Shown here one piece after another: positions 36,068-47,665 of a stretch of 64,000 nt of DNA (positions are counted from its first letter, which is position 1; each line of letters opens with the position of its first letter). The stretch comes from Halothiobacillus sp. (GTDB taxonomy: Bacteria > Pseudomonadota > Gammaproteobacteria > Halothiobacillales > Halothiobacillaceae), in assembly GCA_016278265.1 (NCBI GenBank), contig JADQCE010000002.1, forward strand, positions 372,001 to 436,000, in the 5' to 3' direction. The notes under the pieces were generated by a model. That model did not search any database. It saw only the letters and a list, made by a program, of their open reading frames with translations, and was not told the DNA's origin. Position numbers and translations under genes: made by a program.

Positions 36068-39000
36068 TTACGCCGTCTTTCGGCTCGGTTCACCGGTGCG
36101 ATGACGGGTGCCGCCGAGGTCATCCAGGATGACGTACAGGGCTGGCAGAACAAGTAAGACGAGGACCGTGGCAACGAGCAGTCCGAACACGACGGCAATG
36201 GCCAACGGAATGATTGCCGTGGCTTGAGTCGATGTCTCCGCCAAAAGAGGTAAGAGGCCGGCGATCGTGGTCGAAGAGGTGATGAAGATCGCACGGGTTC
36301 GAGCGCGGCTGGCCTTGCCGGCGGCCGTGATGACATCCAGCCCGTCTTCGTCGCGATATTTCTTGATGAACTGCACCAGCAGGATGGCGTTGTTCACGAC
36401 GATCCCGGCGAGTGACGCGGCACCGACCAGCGACGGCATCGAGAGGTTGTATCCCATGAGGACATGCCCCCAGACCGCGCCGAGAAATGCGAGCGGAATG
36501 GCAAGCATGACGATGAGTGGCTCGACGTAACTTCGGAATTGAAAGGAAAGGATCAGGAAGACACCGATCAACCCGATCAACAATCCGCGCGCAATCGACC
36601 GACCTGTTTCGGCGGAGCGAGCCACTTGTCCTTCATAGCCAATGTCGAGTGACGGATATGCTGCTTTGAGGTCCGGGGCAAGGGTCGTTCGGATGTCGTC
36701 CACGATCGCCTGAGCGTTGTTCCGCGCGACGTCAACGTGGGCCGAGACCGTGACGGTTCGTTGGCCATCAATTCGAGTAATTCGTGCCCACTCGCGGGCG
36801 TCGACCACATCGACCAATTCGGTCAGCGGAACGGCATCGCCCGAGCGAGAGAGAATGACGCTCTGTTCCAGGAAGTCGATGCGGCTGCGTTCCGCGTCGA
36901 TCTGGCGCACGATCAGGTCGACTGGTTGATCGCCGATCTGCAGCGTCGTGAGTCGCTCGCCAAGCACGCCTGTTCGCAACTGGTCGGCGATCTCCTGGGC
37001 GGTGAATCCCAAAGCATAACTACCGGGGGCAAGGTGGAGTTGCCGTTGCGGTTTCCCGGGGCGTAGATCATCAATGATGTTGTAGACCCCGTCGTAGTCG
37101 GCCAAGGCGGTCTGGACGTCCAGGGAAGCCGCCTTCAATTCGTCGAGGTCGTCGCCCATCAGACGGATCTCGATCGGGATGCCCGCCGGACCGAAACCGG
37201 GTTCCTGGATGTTGAGGCGAACCAGGCCGTCGATCCGGGGCAAGGCCGCTTCCCAGGCACCCGTCAATTCGTCCAGGGTCGTGCCGCGTTTTTCCGCGGT
37301 CAGCAGGTCGACGGAGATGGTCGCGACGTGAGGCCCGACTTCGTTGGCGCTAGCATTCTGCCCGTAGCGAATCTGAATGGCTTCGACCAAGGGGTGGCCG
37401 CCCGGTTGTTCGTTCTCCCTATCTGCGCCGACTTGCCGGACGGTGTCCGCGACTTGTTTCGCAACCTCCTCGGTGCGCGAGAGAGGGGTCCCCTGTGGCA
37501 TCAGGATGCGTGCTTCAAGGACATCCCCATCGATGTCCGGCATCGCTTCCATCTTGACGTTACCACCGGCGATAAAGCCCACCGAGCCCAACAGTACGAT
37601 CAGGAGTCCAGCCGCGGTGAGGTAGCGAAAACGGATGGCGGTGTCGGCCACCCGGCCCACGCCTTCCCGGAATCGTTCGAATCCTCGGTGAAATCGGCCA
37701 TGCCAGCCGGTCTCGTCGGCAGGGTCCATGGTCAGGTCATGCCGTTCGGCGCTGTGCTTGAGGTGATGCGGCAGGATCCAGAACGCCTCGACCAGACTGG
37801 CGGCAAGGGCCGCGATCAGAACCACGGGGAGCACCTCCAGCACCGCCCCGAGTTCGCCGGCGAGGAACGACAGCGGGGCGAACACGGCGACCGTGGTCAA
37901 AAACGAGGACATCACCCCCGGCAGGATCTCCCGTGCCCCGATGCTTACCGCATCGAGGGTGCTGGACTGGCGTTTGAGCTGTTCGACGATGTGATCGGTC
38001 AGCACCACCGAGTCATCCATTACGATGCCTACCGCCATCAGCAGCGCCACGAGCGTGATCATGTTCAGCGACAGGCCGAACAGGCTCATGGCGAAGAACG
38101 CACCGGCGAAGGCGACAGGCAGCCCCAGCACCGCCCAGACGGCCAGTCGCGGGCGGAAGAACAGGCTCATCACCAGCGTGACCAGAACAAGGCCCGCGAT
38201 GCCATTCTTCACCAGCATCTGCAGCCGATCCTCGACGATCGAGGTCATATCCTGGGTGATCGTCAGGGCAACCGAGTCGCCCCGCGAGGCCTGTTCCTCG
38301 GCCATGAATGCCCTGAGGCCGGCCATCACGTCGAGGGCGTCCTCCGATTGGCTCTTGAAGACCTCCAGCACCACGGCTCGCTGATCGTCGTAGTCGATGC
38401 GCTCTTCCGGGCGTTCGTAGCGTTCGCTGATTGCCGCGATCTCGCCGAGCGTGATCTCCGCCCCCGAATCCGAGCGCAGGACGGGTAGCGAAGCCAGTGC
38501 GTCGACGTTCCGTCGTTGGTCGACGAAACGAAGCTGGATTTCCTGACGATCCCCTTCGATGGTGCCGATCGGTAGGTCGAGGTTTTGCTGACGTATGACG
38601 TTGGCGATGTCTCGTACGGTCAGCCCGTATTGCCGGAGTTCGTCGCGGGAGAGCCGGATCTCCCAGCGGCGATCGGAGAGTCCCGCGAGCCTGACGTCGC
38701 TCACCCCTTCGATTCGGCGCAGACGATCTTCCAGCGACCGGGCGTAGCTCTCAAGGTGAGGGAGGCTGGTGTCGGCGCGGACGGCCAATGCGGCGACAAG
38801 GTCGTTTCGGTGCAGCTCGCGGATAACCGGGGGGCGAGCCTGTTCGGGGAAATCGATGATCGCGTCGATCTCGGTGCGAATGTCATCGAGGAAGCGGCCC
38901 GTCTCGCCGCCGGGTTCCATCTTGGCGACGGCATCGGCCAGGTTGTCCTGGGCGTGACAGGTGAACTCCTCGAGGTTTGCCACCCCGGCCAGCGCGTCGC

Positions 39001-39196
39001 CTAGTCGCAGACAGATGTTTTCCTCGACATCGGTAGCCGTGGCTCCCCGGTATTCCACCGAGATCGCCGCCTCGACCGGCTGGTAGTCGGGAAAGGTTTC
39101 CCGGATGAGCTGTGGCGCACTGAACGCGCCGACGGCCAGAAACAAGATCAGCAACAGGTTGGCGGCCGTCGGATGGCCGGCGAACCACCGAATCAT
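36068..39196 (-). CDS. RND-family efflux permease
   Basis: 1042 aa inner-membrane proton-driven pump of the AcrB/MdtBC class: 12 helices, two large periplasmic loops, TM4 proton-relay aspartates in MAVGIVMDDSVVLTDH, and repeat halves with PLIVMLAIPLAFLGAVWGH and LVGAASLAGIVVNNAILLVQF. It forms a complex with the MFP encoded by the overlapping upstream gene; no outer-membrane factor is present nearby. Transcribed leftward from the TetR-controlled divergent promoter region at about 40.65 kb. Confidence 0.93.
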   Translation of the reverse strand: MIRWFAGHPTAANLLLILFLAVGAFSAPQLIRETFPDYQPVEAAISVEYRGATATDVEENICLRLGDALAGVANLEEFTCHAQDNLADAVAKMEPGGETGRFLDDIRTEIDAIIDFPEQARPPVIRELHRNDLVAALAVRADTSLPHLESYARSLEDRLRRIEGVSDVRLAGLSDRRWEIRLSRDELRQYGLTVRDIANVIRQQNLDLPIGTIEGDRQEIQLRFVDQRRNVDALASLPVLRSDSGAEITLGEIAAISERYERPEERIDYDDQRAVVLEVFKSQSEDALDVMAGLRAFMAEEQASRGDSVALTITQDMTSIVEDRLQMLVKNGIAGLVLVTLVMSLFFRPRLAVWAVLGLPVAFAGAFFAMSLFGLSLNMITLVALLMAVGIVMDDSVVLTDHIVEQLKRQSSTLDAVSIGAREILPGVMSSFLTTVAVFAPLSFLAGELGAVLEVLPVVLIAALAASLVEAFWILPHHLKHSAERHDLTMDPADETGWHGRFHRGFERFREGVGRVADTAIRFRYLTAAGLLIVLLGSVGFIAGGNVKMEAMPDIDGDVLEARILMPQGTPLSRTEEVAKQVADTVRQVGADRENEQPGGHPLVEAIQIRYGQNASANEVGPHVATISVDLLTAEKRGTTLDELTGAWEAALPRIDGLVRLNIQEPGFGPAGIPIEIRLMGDDLDELKAASLDVQTALADYDGVYNIIDDLRPGKPQRQLHLAPGSYALGFTAQEIADQLRTGVLGERLTTLQIGDQPVDLIVRQIDAERSRIDFLEQSVILSRSGDAVPLTELVDVVDAREWARITRIDGQRTVTVSAHVDVARNNAQAIVDDIRTTLAPDLKAAYPSLDIGYEGQVARSAETGRSIARGLLIGLIGVFLILSFQFRSYVEPLIVMLAIPLAFLGAVWGHVLMGYNLSMPSLVGAASLAGIVVNNAILLVQFIKKYRDEDGLDVITAAGKASRARTRAIFITSSTTIAGLLPLLAETSTQATAIIPLAIAVVFGLLVATVLVLLVLPALYVILDDLGGTRHRTGEPSRKTA

Positions 39197-40548
39197 GTGG
39201 CCTCTCCGGTGACCCGGTCGATCAGGGCGTCCTGTGCGTCAACATCATGGCGTGGCCGCAACCCCATCCCGTTGATCGCCGGAATGGGGTCGTCGATGAT
39301 TACCCGCTCGCCGGGCTTCAGGCCCGCCTCCACGATGACCCAGCCGTTTTGTGGCCGGGATGTTTGGACGTCGCGCCGTTCCAGTCGGTCGTGTTCGTCG
39401 ACGAGATAGACCTGGCCCTGGTGGACCGCCTCGACCGGGACAACCAGTCGCGGTTCGCTGGCCGTGACCGTGAATCGTCCCTCGACAAACGTCCCGGGAA
39501 CGAGAGCGGGTCGTCGGGGCGGTTGAGCGTTCCGATAGGGCTGGTCGATGGCCGTGATGACCTGCAGTGTGCGAGTCGCCGGATCCAGCCCTTCGGCCAC
39601 CCGGGCGATCCGGGCATCCCAGCTTGCCCTTTCTTCCGAACCGGTAAGGATCCGGACATTGATGCCCGAGAGTGCCTTGGTCGAGGGGACCGGGCCGTCG
39701 AGTGTCAGGGCATCCTCCCCCAGCCCGGCGACAAGGTCTCGCATGTGGGCAAACGAGATCTGGATGGGGGCTTCGGCTACCTGGATGCCATCGGCAACGA
39801 AAAGACGTTGTCCACGCGTTACCTGTTGGCCGGCCTCGACCTCAACCTGTCCGATCCGCATATCGAAGGGAGCGGTGATGCGGGTGTCGTCGAGGTCTTC
39901 CTGGGCCAGTTTCCGGCGGACTTCCGCCTGTTCCTGTCGAGCTGCCAGGCGATCGAGCTTGACGGGGATCTGGGCGAGTTGGTTCGCCAGGGTTTGCGTG
40001 GACTGGCGTTGCTGGATCGTCGCGCGTCGCTGCGCATCCCGTTGGTTCGCCGAGAGCATGTCGCGGTCGGCCAGTGATTCGGCGCGTGACAGCTCCCGCT
40101 CGGCCAATGCCAGCCGCTGGCGCTCCAGTTCGTGAAGGGCTTCGGTGTTCTCTTGTTCCTGCAGTAGTTCTCGGCGCTCGGCCTCCATGCCCCTCAGATC
40201 GGCGTTTGCTTGCTCAAGCGCCAGCTCGTACCGGCTGGGGTCTAGGACCAGCAGTTCGGTACCGGCTTCGATGAATTCGCCGTTCTCCAGCCCCGCGTGA
40301 CGGTTCACCACTCGGCCGGACACGTTGGCCACGGCTGCCCAGGGGCGGGCGGACTGGACGGTGCCAAAGCCGCTTGCCTGCAGCGTCGGTCGGATCGGAG
40401 TGGCTTCGATGAACCGCACGGCCGCTTGCTGGATGGCCTCGTCGCTTTCGGGCGGGCCCTGTCGGGTCGCGATGAATGTCGCGAGGATGATGCCGCCGAT
40501 GAGAAGGCCGCCGAATACGGTCAATGCGCGGGTGAGGCGTGTCGCCAT
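39193..40548 (-). CDS. RND periplasmic adaptor (membrane-fusion protein)
   Basis: 451 aa. An N-terminal anchor (RALTVFGGLLIGGIILATF) is followed by a lipoyl half-motif (VSGRVVNRHAGLENGEFIEAGTELLVLD), a long coiled-coil hairpin (residues about 115-210), the second lipoyl half (ITAPFDMRIGQVEVEAGQQVTRGQ) and a beta-barrel/MP domain. The ATG at 40548 is preceded by AAAGGGA. It overlaps the pump gene by four bases and is divergent from the TetR gene. Confidence 0.92.
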   Translation of the reverse strand: MATRLTRALTVFGGLLIGGIILATFIATRQGPPESDEAIQQAAVRFIEATPIRPTLQASGFGTVQSARPWAAVANVSGRVVNRHAGLENGEFIEAGTELLVLDPSRYELALEQANADLRGMEAERRELLQEQENTEALHELERQRLALAERELSRAESLADRDMLSANQRDAQRRATIQQRQSTQTLANQLAQIPVKLDRLAARQEQAEVRRKLAQEDLDDTRITAPFDMRIGQVEVEAGQQVTRGQRLFVADGIQVAEAPIQISFAHMRDLVAGLGEDALTLDGPVPSTKALSGINVRILTGSEERASWDARIARVAEGLDPATRTLQVITAIDQPYRNAQPPRRPALVPGTFVEGRFTVTASEPRLVVPVEAVHQGQVYLVDEHDRLERRDVQTSRPQNGWVIVEAGLKPGERVIIDDPIPAINGMGLRPRHDVDAQDALIDRVTGEAT

Positions 40549-40612
40549 GGGAAGTCCCTTTGAGCGTGACGAGCGGTGGCGACCAACGAGGTGCCAGTCC
40601 AAAAGTGATCGG

Positions 40613-40685
40613 TTGCTATCTTCTCCTGTCGCCCCCGTCTCTTGTCAAGCGTTGACATGCGACCGTTCATGCCAAAAGATAGCAA
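40613..40685. promoter_or_regulatory. Nested concentric palindromes in the tetR/RND divergent promoter
   Basis: The inner palindrome TGTCAA-GCG-TTGACA (40643-40657) supplies TTGACA -35 hexamers to both directions. Outer arms TTGCTATCTT (40613-40622) and AAGATAGCAA (40676-40685) are perfectly complementary and centred within one base of the inner dyad. This is the natural operator region for the TetR-type repressor. Confidence 0.7.
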
Positions 40686-40711
40686 ACAATTACTTTCTTG
40701 GAGATCGAGCA

Positions 40712-41341
40712 TTGTCATCATCCAACGAACATGAGCCGGTTCGTTCTCGCCAGTATCTGCCTTCCGAGGAGAGGCGGGATGAGACGGCGCGGGCCGTCGT
40801 TGATCTTGCGGGTGAGCAAAATCCCAACGGGATCAGCACCAAGGCGATCGCCGAGAAGATGGGAGTGACCCAGGGTGCCCTGTTCCGTCATTTCCCGAAC
40901 AAGGAGGCGATCTTCGCCGGGGTGATCCAGTGGGTGGCTCGTCGTCTCATGAAGCGAATCGACGCTGCCATTCAGGACATCGACTCACCGATCGCGAAGC
41001 TCGAGGCCATGTTCCACGCGCATGTCGGGTTCGTCACCGATCATCCGGGCGTGCCGCGGATGGTGTTCGGTGAACTACAGCACCACGGGGATCGCTTGCC
41101 GAAGCGCATGGTGCGGGAGTTGGTTGGCCGTTACACCGACAAGGTTGCCGGACTTCTCCGTGACGGCCAGCAAGCCGATGAGGTCGACGCGACCGTGGAT
41201 GTCGAGGCGGCCGCAAGCCTGTTCATCGGAACGATCCAGGGCCTCGTGATGCAGTCGCTGATCGTTGGCGACCCAGTCCTTGTGCGAGAGCGGGCCCCGG
41301 GGGCGTTTGCCATTTACCGGCGTGGAATCGAACCGCAATAA
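40712..41341 (+). CDS. TetR-family repressor of the RND pump
   Basis: 209 aa. The N-terminal HTH (ISTKAIAEKMGVTQGALFRHFPNKEAIFAGVI) is followed by a helical ligand-binding domain. It starts at TTG 40712, chosen because GGAG lies eight bases upstream and the divergent promoter occupies the sequence before it; the open frame reaches back to 40325 through the MFP gene. Likely represses itself and the divergent adaptor-pump operon. Confidence 0.88.
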   Translation: MSSSNEHEPVRSRQYLPSEERRDETARAVVDLAGEQNPNGISTKAIAEKMGVTQGALFRHFPNKEAIFAGVIQWVARRLMKRIDAAIQDIDSPIAKLEAMFHAHVGFVTDHPGVPRMVFGELQHHGDRLPKRMVRELVGRYTDKVAGLLRDGQQADEVDATVDVEAAASLFIGTIQGLVMQSLIVGDPVLVRERAPGAFAIYRRGIEPQ

Positions 41342-41373
41342 CGGGTCACTTTTTCAACAGGAGAGAATCCATC

Positions 41374-41829
41374 ATGAACATGTCGAATCGCTTTGGTGCG
41401 TGGGTAGCGATCCTGGCGCTTGGCGGGGCAGGAGCGGCCAGCGGTGTGCTGGCTGATGAAGGCGGCGCCCCGCACGAGTTCCACGAGATCATGGAGGACC
41501 TGGGAGATCACATGGTGGGTATCACCGAGGGGATTACCCACGAGGATTGGATTCGGGTGGCCGAACACGCCGAAGCGGTCGCGAATCATCCACGTCCACC
41601 CATGACCGAACGCGTTCGCATCATGGCGTTTGCCGGAACGGAAGTGGCGCAATTCAAGAAATACGACAACGAGGTGCATGAGGCGGCGGCCACCTTGGCA
41701 GACGAGGCCGCCGGTGGTGATGGCTCGGCGATCATCACGGCTTTCGGTCGTCTTCAAAATGGTTGCCTTGATTGCCATACCACGTTCCGTTCGGCCTACC
41801 GGGAGCACTTCCTTTCTGCCGCGGACTAA
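41374..41829 (+). CDS. Cytochrome c'
   Basis: 151 aa periplasmic haem protein. A signal peptide (ends VLADE) precedes the four-helix-bundle cytochrome-c' domain with the C-terminal haem motif CLDCH in LQNGCLDCHTTFRSAYREHF, about 15 residues from the end as usual. It binds NO (and CO) at five-coordinate haem and protects against nitrosative stress. GGAGAG precedes the ATG. It is next to norR and hmp, so it is part of an NO-defence cluster; its last four bases overlap the end of norR. Confidence 0.92.
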   Translation: MNMSNRFGAWVAILALGGAGAASGVLADEGGAPHEFHEIMEDLGDHMVGITEGITHEDWIRVAEHAEAVANHPRPPMTERVRIMAFAGTEVAQFKKYDNEVHEAAATLADEAAGGDGSAIITAFGRLQNGCLDCHTTFRSAYREHFLSAAD

Positions 41830-43418
41830 CGGATCTCGTGGGGCTGTTTGTGCCTCCCGGGTGTCTTGATTCCGAGACGTGCTGCCATTCGGTGTAGGTT
41901 TCCGGGATCCATCTCCAGTCGACGAGCCGTGGCTGCCCAGTTGCCGCCCTCGGCAGCCAGTGCCCGACGGATCATGTCCTGCTGGAACAGGGCGGTGGCC
42001 TCACGCAGGCTTCCTCGTGGCGCAGGCGCCGCCGTTTCCTCCCGGTTGGGCGACTTCTCCACATGCCGCGTCGCTCCCTCTCGGGCAAGATCAAGATGTT
42101 CGCTCCGTATCGGGACGATCCCCTTGCGTCGCTCGTCGGGCGAATGGAAGTCGGCATCCCCCAGTGCCCGTAGTGAGGCACGGGCGATGACATGCTCCAG
42201 TTCTCGGATGTTTCCCGGCCAACCCGATTGCAGCAGGAATCGCTCGGCATCCATTTCCAGCCTGAGATTGGCCACCCCGAGCCGTACGCGGTTCTCTTCC
42301 AGGAAGTGTCCGGCGAGAAGGGGAATGTCCTCGACGCGCTTTCGTAGGGGCGGGACATGAAGCGGGAAGACGCCCAGCCGGTGGTAGAGGTCCTCGCGAA
42401 AACGTCCGGCTTTCACCTCGCTGGTCAGATCACGGTTGGTGACCGCCACCACGCGGACATCCACGGGCTGAGAGCGCTCGTGGCCCAGCGGCTGGATTTC
42501 ACCCTCCTGCAGGGCCCTGAGCAGCTTTGGCTGAAGCGAGAGGGGCAATTCGCCGATTTCGTCGAGCATCAGGGTCCCCCCGTCGGCCATGGCGAAGTGG
42601 CCCCGGTGGTCGCTGACCGCGCCCGAGAACGCGCCGCGACGATGGCCGAACAGGGCGCTCTCGATAAGGTTTTCCGGCAAAGCGGCGCAATTGACGTGAA
42701 CCAGCGGTCCCTTGCGCCGTCGCGATCGTTCGTGGAGCGTGCGAACGACGTGTTCCTTTCCTACCCCGGTCTCGCCGGTGAGCAGGACATTCATTTCCGT
42801 GGGCGCAACCAGGTCGATGGACTTCATCAGGTCGCGCATGACCGGACTGGCCCACTCGTTCAGCAGCGGCTGATGATGGTTGTCGTCCAGTACCTCGCTG
42901 AGTATCGAACGGGTGGCGTTCAGTCGTTTGGCGAGGCGAAGACAGGTCGCCAGGAGTTCCGCCGCTGCCCGAAGCTCGTTCTCGTTGAGCTGGTCGAGAT
43001 CGCCGGGGCGCAATGCATCCAGCGTCAGGATGCCCGTCAGCTCGCCCTTGTCTCGCAGGGCGACACCCACGCAGTCGTGAACGTGCGTCAGCTCGTCGTC
43101 GAGCAGCCCGTCGAATGGGTCGGGGAGATCGGTATCGGGCGGAAAACGGCAGACGGACGGATGCGCGGCGATGGCCGCCAGGCGGGGTGCATCGGCCAGG
43201 GAAAACTCGCGCCCCCTGACTTCGTCACCGAGTCCCAGCACGGCAACCGGGCGGAGAACGTTGCCATCCATGACCAACAGGGCGCTGGCGTCGGCCGGGT
43301 AGTCGCCGACCAAGGCCTGCAGTACCGCCTGCCAGTACTGGGTAAGCGTTTCGTCGTCGTTCCCCTCGGCCAGCTGGGTGAGCAATTCACGTAAGGAATG
43401 CAGGAATCCGGTCATCAT
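41826..43418 (-). CDS. norR: NorR-type NO-responsive sigma54 activator
   Basis: 530 aa. An N-terminal GAF domain (residues 1-170, site of the NO-sensing iron in NorR) is followed by an AAA+ domain with Walker A GETGVGKE and Walker B GGTLMLDEIGE, and a C-terminal Fis-type HTH (NWAATARRLEMDPGNLHRMAARLG). The sigma54-contact loop reads GAFSGA instead of GAFTGA. It is divergent from hmp; three NorR boxes and a -24/-12 promoter lie between them, and the first box starts six bases upstream of the norR start, suggesting autoregulation. Confidence 0.93.
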   Translation of the reverse strand: MMTGFLHSLRELLTQLAEGNDDETLTQYWQAVLQALVGDYPADASALLVMDGNVLRPVAVLGLGDEVRGREFSLADAPRLAAIAAHPSVCRFPPDTDLPDPFDGLLDDELTHVHDCVGVALRDKGELTGILTLDALRPGDLDQLNENELRAAAELLATCLRLAKRLNATRSILSEVLDDNHHQPLLNEWASPVMRDLMKSIDLVAPTEMNVLLTGETGVGKEHVVRTLHERSRRRKGPLVHVNCAALPENLIESALFGHRRGAFSGAVSDHRGHFAMADGGTLMLDEIGELPLSLQPKLLRALQEGEIQPLGHERSQPVDVRVVAVTNRDLTSEVKAGRFREDLYHRLGVFPLHVPPLRKRVEDIPLLAGHFLEENRVRLGVANLRLEMDAERFLLQSGWPGNIRELEHVIARASLRALGDADFHSPDERRKGIVPIRSEHLDLAREGATRHVEKSPNREETAAPAPRGSLREATALFQQDMIRRALAAEGGNWAATARRLEMDPGNLHRMAARLGIKTPGRHKQPHEIR

Positions 43419-43423
43419 GCGGT

Positions 43424-43479
43424 GTACTTATAACAATGATGTTGTCTGATGAACAGCGATTGGCCGTTGTCATAAGGAC
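43424..43479. promoter_or_regulatory. Three NorR enhancer boxes (GT-N7-AC)
   Basis: GTACTTATAAC (43424-43434), GTCTGATGAAC (43444-43454) and GTCATAAGGAC (43469-43479) each match the GT-N7-AC NorR core, spaced 20 and 25 bases. They lie 90-145 bases upstream of the hmp -24/-12 promoter, as expected for an enhancer-bound NorR hexamer. Confidence 0.8.
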
Positions 43480-43568
43480 ATTGATGCCCCTGTCTCATGC
43501 TCAGGGCTTCCTGGCCGGAGAGCGGTATGGCGGGCATTGCCGGGGTTGATTGGTCATCCGGCCTGCAT

Positions 43569-43585
43569 CGGCATGGCCCTTGCTC
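43569..43585 (+). promoter_or_regulatory. Sigma54 promoter of hmp
   Basis: CGGCATGGCCCTTGCTC: GG (43570-43571) and GC (43582-43583) separated by 10 bases, with a consensus TTGCT -12 half. Start of transcription is expected near 43595, 34 bases before the hmp ATG. Confidence 0.75.
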
Positions 43586-43628
43586 AATCAGTGGGTCCTT
43601 ATCCACCACCCACCGAGAAACCGATAGC

Positions 43629-44801
43629 ATGATGACAAAAGACCAGGAACACCTGATCGAGGCGACGGCCCCGCTCGTCGCGGAACACATCGAGGCGATC
43701 ACCCAGCGGTTCTATCCCCTGATGTTCGATCGCTATCCTGACGTCAAGCCCCTGTTCAACGAGACCAACCAGAAAAGCGGCCAGCAGCCACGCGCCTTGG
43801 CGGCGGCCGTTGTGGCGTATGTCCAGATGCGGGGTAACCCGGAGATGGTCCGCGACAAGATGGCCGTGGCGGTAAGCAAGCATATCTCCCTTGGCATCCG
43901 TGCCGACCAGTATCCGATCGTCGGGGAGTGCCTGATCGCCGCGGTGGCGGACGTGTTGGGCGAGGCGGTGACCCCCGAGATCGCCGAGGCGTGGACGGCG
44001 CTCTACTGGGAGCTCGCCGAGCTGTTGATCGAAATGGAGGACGTGCGCTACGCGGCATTTGAACATCTGCCGGGCGGCTGGCGCGGAGCGCGTCGCTTCC
44101 GGATCGCCTCTACGCAGCAGGAAAGCGCGGTCATCCGTTCCTTTTTGCTCGAGCCCGAGGATGGCGGCGCGGTCGCGGACTTCGAGCCCGGCCAGTTCAT
44201 CGGTGTGCGTCTGACCATCGACAATGAGCCCCTGTACCGGCATTACAGCCTCTCCGATGCACCCAACGGTCGTGCCTATCGTATTTCCGTCAAGCGCGAT
44301 CCGGAAGGTCGTGCCAGCCGACACCTCCACGACACGATGCAGGTTGGCGATACGCTGGACCTGTTGCCGCCGTCGGGTGATCTCACCCTGGAGGCGGGGC
44401 ATGAGCCGCTGTTGCTGGTCAGCGGTGGCGTGGGTCAGACACCGATGCTCCCACTCGCACGGCAGGCATTGGCGGAAGGACGTCGAGTCGTCTACCTGCA
44501 CGCCGCCCTCGATGCCGATCATCATGCGTTCGCCGACGAGATCGCCGCGCTGCGCCAGCGACATCCCGAACAGATGCACGCGGTCTCGATCTACGAAAAC
44601 GGAAGTGGCGCTGATCATGTCGGTCGCATCGATCGCGACCTGTTGGCCCGCTACCTTCCCGACGACGAAGCGCGCTGCTATTTCGTCGGCCCGGGGCCGT
44701 TCATGACCGTGGTCGATGCCGCGCTGGAGCAGCTGGGTGTGCCTGAGGACCGGCGTCATTACGAGTATTTTGGTCCGTCACAGCCACTGAACGCCGCATA
44801 A
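43629..44801 (+). CDS. hmp: Flavohaemoglobin (NO dioxygenase)
   Basis: 390 aa. The globin domain (residues 1-140, proximal His in VSKHISLGI) is followed by a ferredoxin-reductase FAD domain (YRHYSLSDAPN) and an NAD domain (LLVSGGVGQTPMLPL; YFVGPGPFM). It converts NO and O2 to nitrate with NAD(P)H in the cytoplasm. It starts at ATG 43629, or at the adjacent ATG 43632. A sigma54 promoter with NorR boxes upstream means induction by NO; a terminator follows at 44856. Confidence 0.95.
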   Translation: MMTKDQEHLIEATAPLVAEHIEAITQRFYPLMFDRYPDVKPLFNETNQKSGQQPRALAAAVVAYVQMRGNPEMVRDKMAVAVSKHISLGIRADQYPIVGECLIAAVADVLGEAVTPEIAEAWTALYWELAELLIEMEDVRYAAFEHLPGGWRGARRFRIASTQQESAVIRSFLLEPEDGGAVADFEPGQFIGVRLTIDNEPLYRHYSLSDAPNGRAYRISVKRDPEGRASRHLHDTMQVGDTLDLLPPSGDLTLEAGHEPLLLVSGGVGQTPMLPLARQALAEGRRVVYLHAALDADHHAFADEIAALRQRHPEQMHAVSIYENGSGADHVGRIDRDLLARYLPDDEARCYFVGPGPFMTVVDAALEQLGVPEDRRHYEYFGPSQPLNAA

Positions 44802-46639: not shown

Positions 46640-47665
46640 TTACCCGTCCTGTGCTTTTTTCCTCGGAGCCACCGGCATCACCCGGATCGCTTTCCGGCTG
46701 CGCAGGTAGGCTTCTGTCTGCTTGCGTGTAGTATGGCCCAGCAACGCCTGCGGGTCATGCCCCTGGTCGTCGGCATCGGTCGCCGCCTTGGCTCGCAGGT
46801 CGTGGAACGTGAACCGCTCGCGCAAGACTTCCTCGCGGATCGCCCGGCGCTGTAGCCTCTGCCACCAAGCCTTAAATCCGTTGGTCGTGTACGCCTTGCC
46901 GTCGCGCCGGCGGATCAGCGTCAGTCCGAACACCTCACGCGAGGCCTTGAGCCGGCGGATCACGTCGGATAGCTCGGGCGTGATCTCCATCACCTGCCGC
47001 TGACCCGTCTTGCCCTGGCGCAAAACCAGGCCGTCGTCGGTGACTTGGCTCTGCGTGAGTTGGATCAGGTCGCCTAATCGAATCCCGGTCGCGTATGCCA
47101 GATCCATCACCGCCTGCCCATGCTCGTCGGCCAGCGCCTTGACGGCGATGAACTCCGCATCGCTGACGTACCGGTCGCGGGATTCCTCTTTGTTGCGCTC
47201 GACGCCGATGCAGGGGTTTCGGCTCGCCATGCCGATCCGCATCGCCTTTGTGTAGGCGACCGACAGCGTGCCGATCTGCCGGTTCGCGGAGACTGGCGAC
47301 TTGTGCGCCTCGAGGAATTGCGCTACATGCTGTGGCTGGACGGCATCGGGCCGCATGTGGCCGAATGCCTTTTCCAGCACGTCGATGTGGGCGCTCCGGT
47401 CTTTCTGCGTTCTTTCTGCAAGTGCAGAAAGGTGCTTCACCCGGTAGTAGTGCAGCATGGCCGCCACGGTATCGCCACGGCTCGGCTCACGGCGCTCGGA
47501 CTCGATGCGCGCCCACTTCATCTTCGCCTCGGGCAACGAACTGCCAAGCGGCTCCCAGTGCCGGCGGCCGTCGGCGTCGTGGTTGTGGACGTAGTAATAG
47601 GCGCGGCCCTTCTGCTGCATTCGCGGCGGAAGGTGCAGACCTTTGGTGCGGCGTCGTGGTGCCAT
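46640..47665 (-). CDS. int: Phage integrase (tyrosine recombinase)
   Basis: 341 aa. An N-terminal arm-binding part and SAM-like core-binding domain precede the catalytic domain, with Arg in YATGIRLGDLIQL, Lys in RQGKTGQRQ, HxxR in FHDLRAKAATDA, His in LLGHTTRKQ and Tyr in TEAYLRS. All catalytic residues are present. It would recombine attP with the 3' end of tRNA-Pro; the att core lies about 400 bases away. The excisionase candidate is the DUF4224 gene two genes upstream. Confidence 0.95.
   Translation of the reverse strand: MAPRRRTKGLHLPPRMQQKGRAYYYVHNHDADGRRHWEPLGSSLPEAKMKWARIESERREPSRGDTVAAMLHYYRVKHLSALAERTQKDRSAHIDVLEKAFGHMRPDAVQPQHVAQFLEAHKSPVSANRQIGTLSVAYTKAMRIGMASRNPCIGVERNKEESRDRYVSDAEFIAVKALADEHGQAVMDLAYATGIRLGDLIQLTQSQVTDDGLVLRQGKTGQRQVMEITPELSDVIRRLKASREVFGLTLIRRRDGKAYTTNGFKAWWQRLQRRAIREEVLRERFTFHDLRAKAATDADDQGHDPQALLGHTTRKQTEAYLRSRKAIRVMPVAPRKKAQDG

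Follow-up and report, generated by a model that had tools for sequence, protein, structure and literature searches.

Control of flavohaemoglobin genes by NorR-type activators is already on record. The accessible part of Rodionov et al. (2005; PMC1274295) gives candidate NorR sites and sigma-54 promoters before hmp in V. cholerae, Pseudomonas spp., Polaromonas sp. and B. fungorum, and also describes hmp of P. stutzeri, whose promoter region combines three NorR boxes, placed at -192, -173 and -148 (spacing 19 and 25), with a sigma-54 promoter. The accessible part of Gardner (2012; PMC3820574) places P. aeruginosa fhp under the control of RpoN and FhpR in response to NO. The 64-kb stretch of DNA analysed here (the window) contains a locus that shares with FhpR-fhp of P. 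aeruginosa and with NorR-hmp of V. cholerae, Polaromonas and B. fungorum, as these are described in the accessible parts of the two papers, a NorR-type activator, a flavohaemoglobin target, GT-N7-AC sites and a sigma-54 promoter. It differs from them in its host lineage, Guyparkeria (an inferred label for the window's genus), and in belonging to a NorR clade in which the E276-R310 pair has been replaced. The P. stutzeri promoter is like that of the window in its three NorR sites and sigma-54 promoter but also has a DNR site, and no norR had turned up in as much of the P. stutzeri genome as was sequenced by then (PMC1274295, same part); the window's intergenic region (43419-43628) has no DNR-type site with up to 2 mismatches and no NsrR-type site with up to 3.

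In layout the locus resembles E. coli norR-norVW, which likewise has divergent genes, three boxes beside norR and a -24/-12 promoter; the accessible part of PMC2941729 terms the sites upstream of norVW essential. The E. coli norR-norV boxes (NC_000913) lie 13, 34 and 58 from norR, with TGGCACGCAATCTGCA downstream of them. An earlier note on this DNA had likened its architecture to that of norVW, and the likeness is borne out, in that boxes and -24/-12 element lie between norR and hmp with a box spacing of 20 and 25 (21 and 24 in E. coli). The two differ in target, which is the NO reductase norVW in E. coli and hmp in the window, in the distance from box 3 to the promoter (~66 bp in E. coli and ~100 bp in the window), and in the activator, where E. 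coli NorR has R81, E276 and R310 and the window NorR has A81, A276 and P310.

The earlier note had regarded the driving of hmp as a departure. That arrangement is already in print (PMC1274295 and PMC3820574, in the parts accessible), and it is frequent in the genomes searched here: one search gave matches in 57 of 398 genomes, residues and neighbours being taken from the best of these. Among the matches listed, 36 loci (L082-L092 and L146-L170) fall outside the clade of the window NorR; hmp is within ~1.5 kb of norR in 21 of them and norV in six. The norR-hmp pair is the commonest arrangement among the listed outside loci and no exception. NorR boxes before hmp are not new, and the regulatory reading holds in its main lines.

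Genes, sites and predicted control of hmp

The norR and hmp genes are divergent, and the boxes and promoter lie between them (Table 1). The norR product scores 614.1 bits against the NCBIfam NorR model NF003451 (curated cut-off 476) and 219.9 bits against Pfam Sigma54_activat, with HTH_8 and GAF marginally below their cut-offs, and 235 of its residues are identical to E. coli NorR in an alignment. Hmp, read from 43632, scores 443.4 bits against NF009805 (cut-off 432), and its Pfam Globin, FAD_binding_6 and NAD_binding_1 matches are all above cut-off. RpoN is encoded in the genome (a single match, 230.1 bits). The GT-N7-AC boxes that had been placed at 43424, 43444 and 43469 match at exactly those coordinates, and the GG-N10-GC promoter is present at 43569, where CGGCATGGCCCTTGC begins, a -24/-12 element that agrees with the consensus at 8 of 10 positions. 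Box 1 does not touch the norR start, as had been claimed, because norR begins at 43418, leaving a gap of 5 bp. Genes, sites, their conservation (below) and the presence of RpoN are all direct observations.

Table 1. Features of the norR-hmp locus and the adjoining gene (window coordinates)
Feature	Position	Strand or direction	Remarks
Putative cytochrome c' gene	41374-41829	converges on norR	PF01322, CXXCH
norR	41826-43418	-	530 aa; GAF, AAA+ with GAFSGA loop, Fis-type HTH
NorR box 1	43424-43434		GTACTTATAAC; kept in 5/5 Guyparkeria
NorR box 2	43444-43454		GTCTGATGAAC; kept in 5/5 Guyparkeria
NorR box 3	43469-43479		GTCATAAGGAC; kept in 5/5 Guyparkeria
Sigma-54 -24/-12 promoter	43569-43584	+	CGGCATGGCCCTTGCT; core invariant in 5/5 Guyparkeria
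hmp, flavohaemoglobin (NO dioxygenase)	43629-44801	+	390 aa; start 43629 or 43632

Motif counts by themselves say little about the boxes. The window contains 161 GT-N7-AC matches where 172 are expected, one three-box cluster within 60 bp where shuffled windows have a mean of 0.65, and one such cluster with a promoter of at least 8/10 at a suitable distance, of which there were 2 in 100 shuffled windows; genome-wide, the spaced box triple occurs twice and the control counts are 2 and 1. By motif alone the three boxes are no better than chance, and conservation was therefore used as evidence.

Five Guyparkeria loci were compared as follows: that of the window, that of its closest relative among them (G003), and those of G005, G009 and G010. 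All 12 box-core (GT/AC) bases and all 8 promoter-core bases are invariant in the five, where 64 of 210 intergenic columns are invariant overall. The hypergeometric probabilities, which ignore relatedness, are 3e-7 for the box core and 5e-5 for the promoter core, and 2e-6 and 2e-4, again ignoring relatedness, when the near relative G003 is left out; the window and G003 alone give only 0.02 and 0.07. Measured from norR, the boxes lie at offsets of 6, 26 and 50/51 in all five loci and the promoter at 147-151. This conservation, together with their place between divergent norR and hmp, makes the boxes convincing as candidate NorR sites.

The locus is very probably a standard divergent norR-hmp unit in which NO-activated NorR on the three boxes would drive hmp from the sigma-54 promoter. 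For NO binding, activation, catalysis and autoregulation we infer from the family, as follows: NorR would occupy the three GT-N7-AC enhancer sites beside its own start codon, NO would bind the iron of its GAF domain and so lift the repression of the AAA+ ring, and the freed ring would remodel sigma-54 RNA polymerase at the 43569 promoter and turn hmp on, whose product would oxidise NO to nitrate. The relief of GAF repression by NO and the opening of the sigma-54 promoter are carried over to this locus from the E. coli NorR work (PMC2941729, accessible part). Against this reading stand the near-chance motif counts, the longer distance from box 3 to the promoter, and, as described below, the absence of a perfect third box in 19 of 21 Halomonadaceae loci and the alanine at position 81 of NorR.

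The same boxes would probably dampen norR too, and autoregulation through box 1 is plausible. In three loci a -10-like hexamer that could serve norR stands 8 nt ahead of its start and is overlapped by box 1, TATAAG in the window and G003 and TAGAAT in G010; with box 1 over these hexamers NorR would sit on its own promoter. This much of the earlier suggestion of autoregulation stands. The rest of the evidence does not favour it, since the best -10-like hexamers found by script in G005 and G009 are not at box 1 and a sigma-70 promoter scan of the window returned no match.

A search for the same boxes elsewhere in the genome had also been proposed. A consensus built from boxes 2 and 3 gave 94 and 101 matches in the window's own genome (controls 107 and 110), and the sigma-54 scan gave 42 (controls 16 and 10); these scans are too unspecific to name more NorR targets.

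The iron centre and sigma-54-contact surface of NorR

Residues were compared, in E. coli numbering, between 29 rows of the window's clade (Guyparkeria and Halomonadaceae) and 35 other readable NorRs; L087 and L164 were excluded from the counts because their frames are misread, and G009 is readable to position 274. Positions 75, 96, 99, 111, 113 and 131 are as in E. coli in all 64 readable rows, the 29 of the clade and the 35 others alike. Of these, D96 and D131 are residues that we take to belong to the NorR GAF iron centre. The accessible part of PMC2941729 ties R75, Y98, D99, H111 and C113 to the GAF non-haem iron centre. The iron-centre residues tested in the window NorR equal those of E. 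coli except for phenylalanine at Y98, a change present in 27 of 29 clade rows, where 34 of 35 others have tyrosine; the disrupting change named in that part of the paper is Y98L, not Y98F.

The sigma-54-contact loop of the window NorR is GAFSGA, a conservative variant of GAFTGA and not the exact motif. Its serine is present in all 29 clade rows and in 12 of 35 others, and GAFSGA is in print, in the text accessible, for other sigma-54 activators. Other differences lie in and around the sigma-54-contact surface. G189W, R271H and K274H are found in 29 of 29 clade rows, where the 35 others all have G, R, and K or R, respectively; V260R is found in 28 of 29 (R in 1 of 35 others), and E276A, R310 to P or A, A297P and A342E are found in 28 of 28, where the others have E in 34, R in 33, P in 1 and A in 35 of 35 rows. 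In the Guyparkeria/Halomonadaceae clade the E276-R310 pair is thus replaced as a set with its neighbours on the predicted sigma-54-contact surface. The PspF equivalents of the two residues (E97-R131) pair to coordinate the sigma-54-contact loops, according to the accessible part of PMC2941729. E276 and R310 are not always lost together, because of the two outside rows without R310, L091 also lacks E276 and L092 keeps it.

Arginine at position 81 is found in a single row of the 29 in the clade, where Guyparkeria/Halomonadaceae NorR has alanine, and in 9 of the 35 others. The remaining 26 outside NorRs have A, S, E, Q, G, N, H or L there, so that NorRs do not in general require R81. Among the matches listed, R81 is found in all seven norV-linked copies read (E. 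coli and six loci) but in only one of the 21 copies that are linked to hmp and lie outside the clade, a pattern that perhaps reflects ancestry because the norV-linked rows are close to one another (norV 82-96% identical to that of E. coli). We tentatively suggest, as a possibility that these alignments raise more than establish, that the window NorR belongs to a clade that rebuilt the surface by which the protein is held off. Because the E276-R310 pair was lost with its neighbouring residues, GAF would need some contact not based on R81 to restrain the AAA+ ring, and because R81 is a minority feature the E. coli off-switch model may not apply to hmp-type NorRs. The accessible part of PMC2941729 contains no discussion of these natural NorR variants, and a literature search returned no paper uniting 'Halomonas', 'NorR' and 'flavohemoglobin'.

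The same residues raise the question of whether NO control is tight. R81A is reported to render E. coli NorR constitutive, and E276 is listed with the positions at which a substitution frees the protein from repression (PMC2941729, accessible part). The window NorR has A81, A276 and P310, and with alanine in place of the E. coli R81 its control by NO is not certain to be tight. NorR might then be largely constitutive or differently gated, the altered sigma-54-contact surface and A81 weakening GAF repression so that hmp is raised and NO only modulates it. We consider this unlikely, given that R81 is missing from 26 of the 35 outside NorRs, that the six iron-centre positions above are unchanged, and that a loop bypass variant is again repressed when position 81 is L, V, I or F (same part of PMC2941729; alanine is not among these).

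Relatives and neighbouring genes

Using thresholds of E <= 1e-120 for norR and E <= 1e-40 for hmp, norR is present in 5 of 27 genomes of the family, all of the window's genus, and the same five carry hmp, so that neither gene occurs without the other at these thresholds; norR adjoins hmp in all five. The pair is therefore present in 5 of 11 same-genus genomes (the window's included) and 0 of 16 others in the family. Of the six same-genus genomes that lack the pair, three are more than 98% complete and three are 64 to 94% complete. Joint presence and absence of this kind points to the two genes having been gained together or lost repeatedly. Horizontal transfer of norR-hmp, possibly from Halomonadaceae, was considered in view of this patchiness and of a NorR tree, made by a quick method and with flagged long branches, that joins Guyparkeria with Halomonadaceae. 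NorR and Hmp histories may differ, because at locus L156 hmp is 67% identical to that of the window but the NorR beside it only about 50%. L156 is from the same family as G296, whose NorR falls in the clade of the window NorR.

Among the NorRs found outside the genus, those of Halomonadaceae, in another order, are the nearest. In all 22 named Halomonadaceae loci hmp is divergent from norR. Their intergenic regions were aligned for 21 of the 22, L031 being omitted as near-identical to L030. Each of the 21 has a -24/-12 match of at least 9/10 (the best-scoring match of L043 is off the aligned place), and 20 have boxes 2 and 3 spaced 23-24 bp, the remaining one (L023) having one perfect box. Only L043 and L044, 2 of the 21, have a perfect third box ~20-21 bp beyond these, so the three-box form, general in the Guyparkeria loci, is not general in these relatives. 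L024, L026 and L029 have extra box matches at other spacings.

By eye, the Halomonadaceae regions also contain, with variation, an imperfect palindrome resembling TGYGGCAGnCTGYCGCA between the NorR boxes and the promoter. It lies ~29-40 bp upstream of the -24 element in, for example, L036 (where it is perfect), L025 and L032, and is weaker in L035, L040, L043 and L044. A different palindrome may occur in G005, G009 and G010; in the window it is weak or absent. When the Halomonadaceae palindrome was searched in 12 genomes, hits were below controls in nine and above them in G398 (17 vs 6), G003 (21 vs 17) and G005 (14 vs 13).

On its other side norR meets the putative cytochrome c' gene, the 3' ends of the two overlapping by 4 bp. 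The product has a CXXCH motif (CLDCH) and matches PF01322 at 35.4 bits (cut-off 26.5), the match covering only residues 90-139 in the C-terminal part; its closest solved structure is the cytochrome c' 1bbh (E 8e-4), it has no NCBIfam match, and a six-coordinate c-556 type may be its class instead. The earlier note had joined this gene to norR and hmp in an NO-defence island, in which it would be a co-regulated NO-binding partner. The convergent overlap, the PF01322 match and the adjacency preserved in G003 speak for this. We nevertheless find it quite improbable: a TetR-family gene (start taken as 40715) precedes it by 32 bp, the region upstream (40540-41373) has no sigma-54 match of at least 8/10 and no tight NorR box group (GT-N7-AC at 41065, 41130 and 41183 is scattered inside the TetR gene), the Pfam match is partial, and the gene is beside norR in G003 only, being absent from the available flanks of G005 and of 22/22 Halomonadaceae loci. 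The contigs of G009 and G010 end inside norR and are uninformative on this point. The pair to retain is norR-hmp, without cytochrome c'.

Two other parts of the window may be mentioned. An RND-type pump (assigned by eye) and an HlyD-type gene at 36068-41341 adjoin the TetR gene that precedes cytochrome c', and these genes are also together in G003. The segment 46327-50325, with an integrase-like ORF at 46640-47665 (- strand, by eye) and many short ORFs, has the look of an integrated element. A tRNA search of the whole window with ARAGORN was negative.

Significance for NorR-hmp systems

That the boxes are chance GT-N7-AC matches and some other regulator controls hmp from a sigma-70 promoter would agree with the near-chance motif counts, box clusters and genome-wide spaced triples, but is hardly credible when 12 core bases stand at fixed offsets in 5/5 Guyparkeria loci, the region has no sigma-70 promoter match or DNR- or NsrR-type site, and norR is beside hmp in 5/5 hmp-bearing genomes of the family. 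The regulatory region, read as a NorR-controlled hmp promoter, adds one genus to the known NorR-hmp pattern, and the protein comparison offers a definite way to test whether the model of R81-based repression, worked out on E. coli NorR, applies to the many NorRs beside flavohaemoglobin genes.
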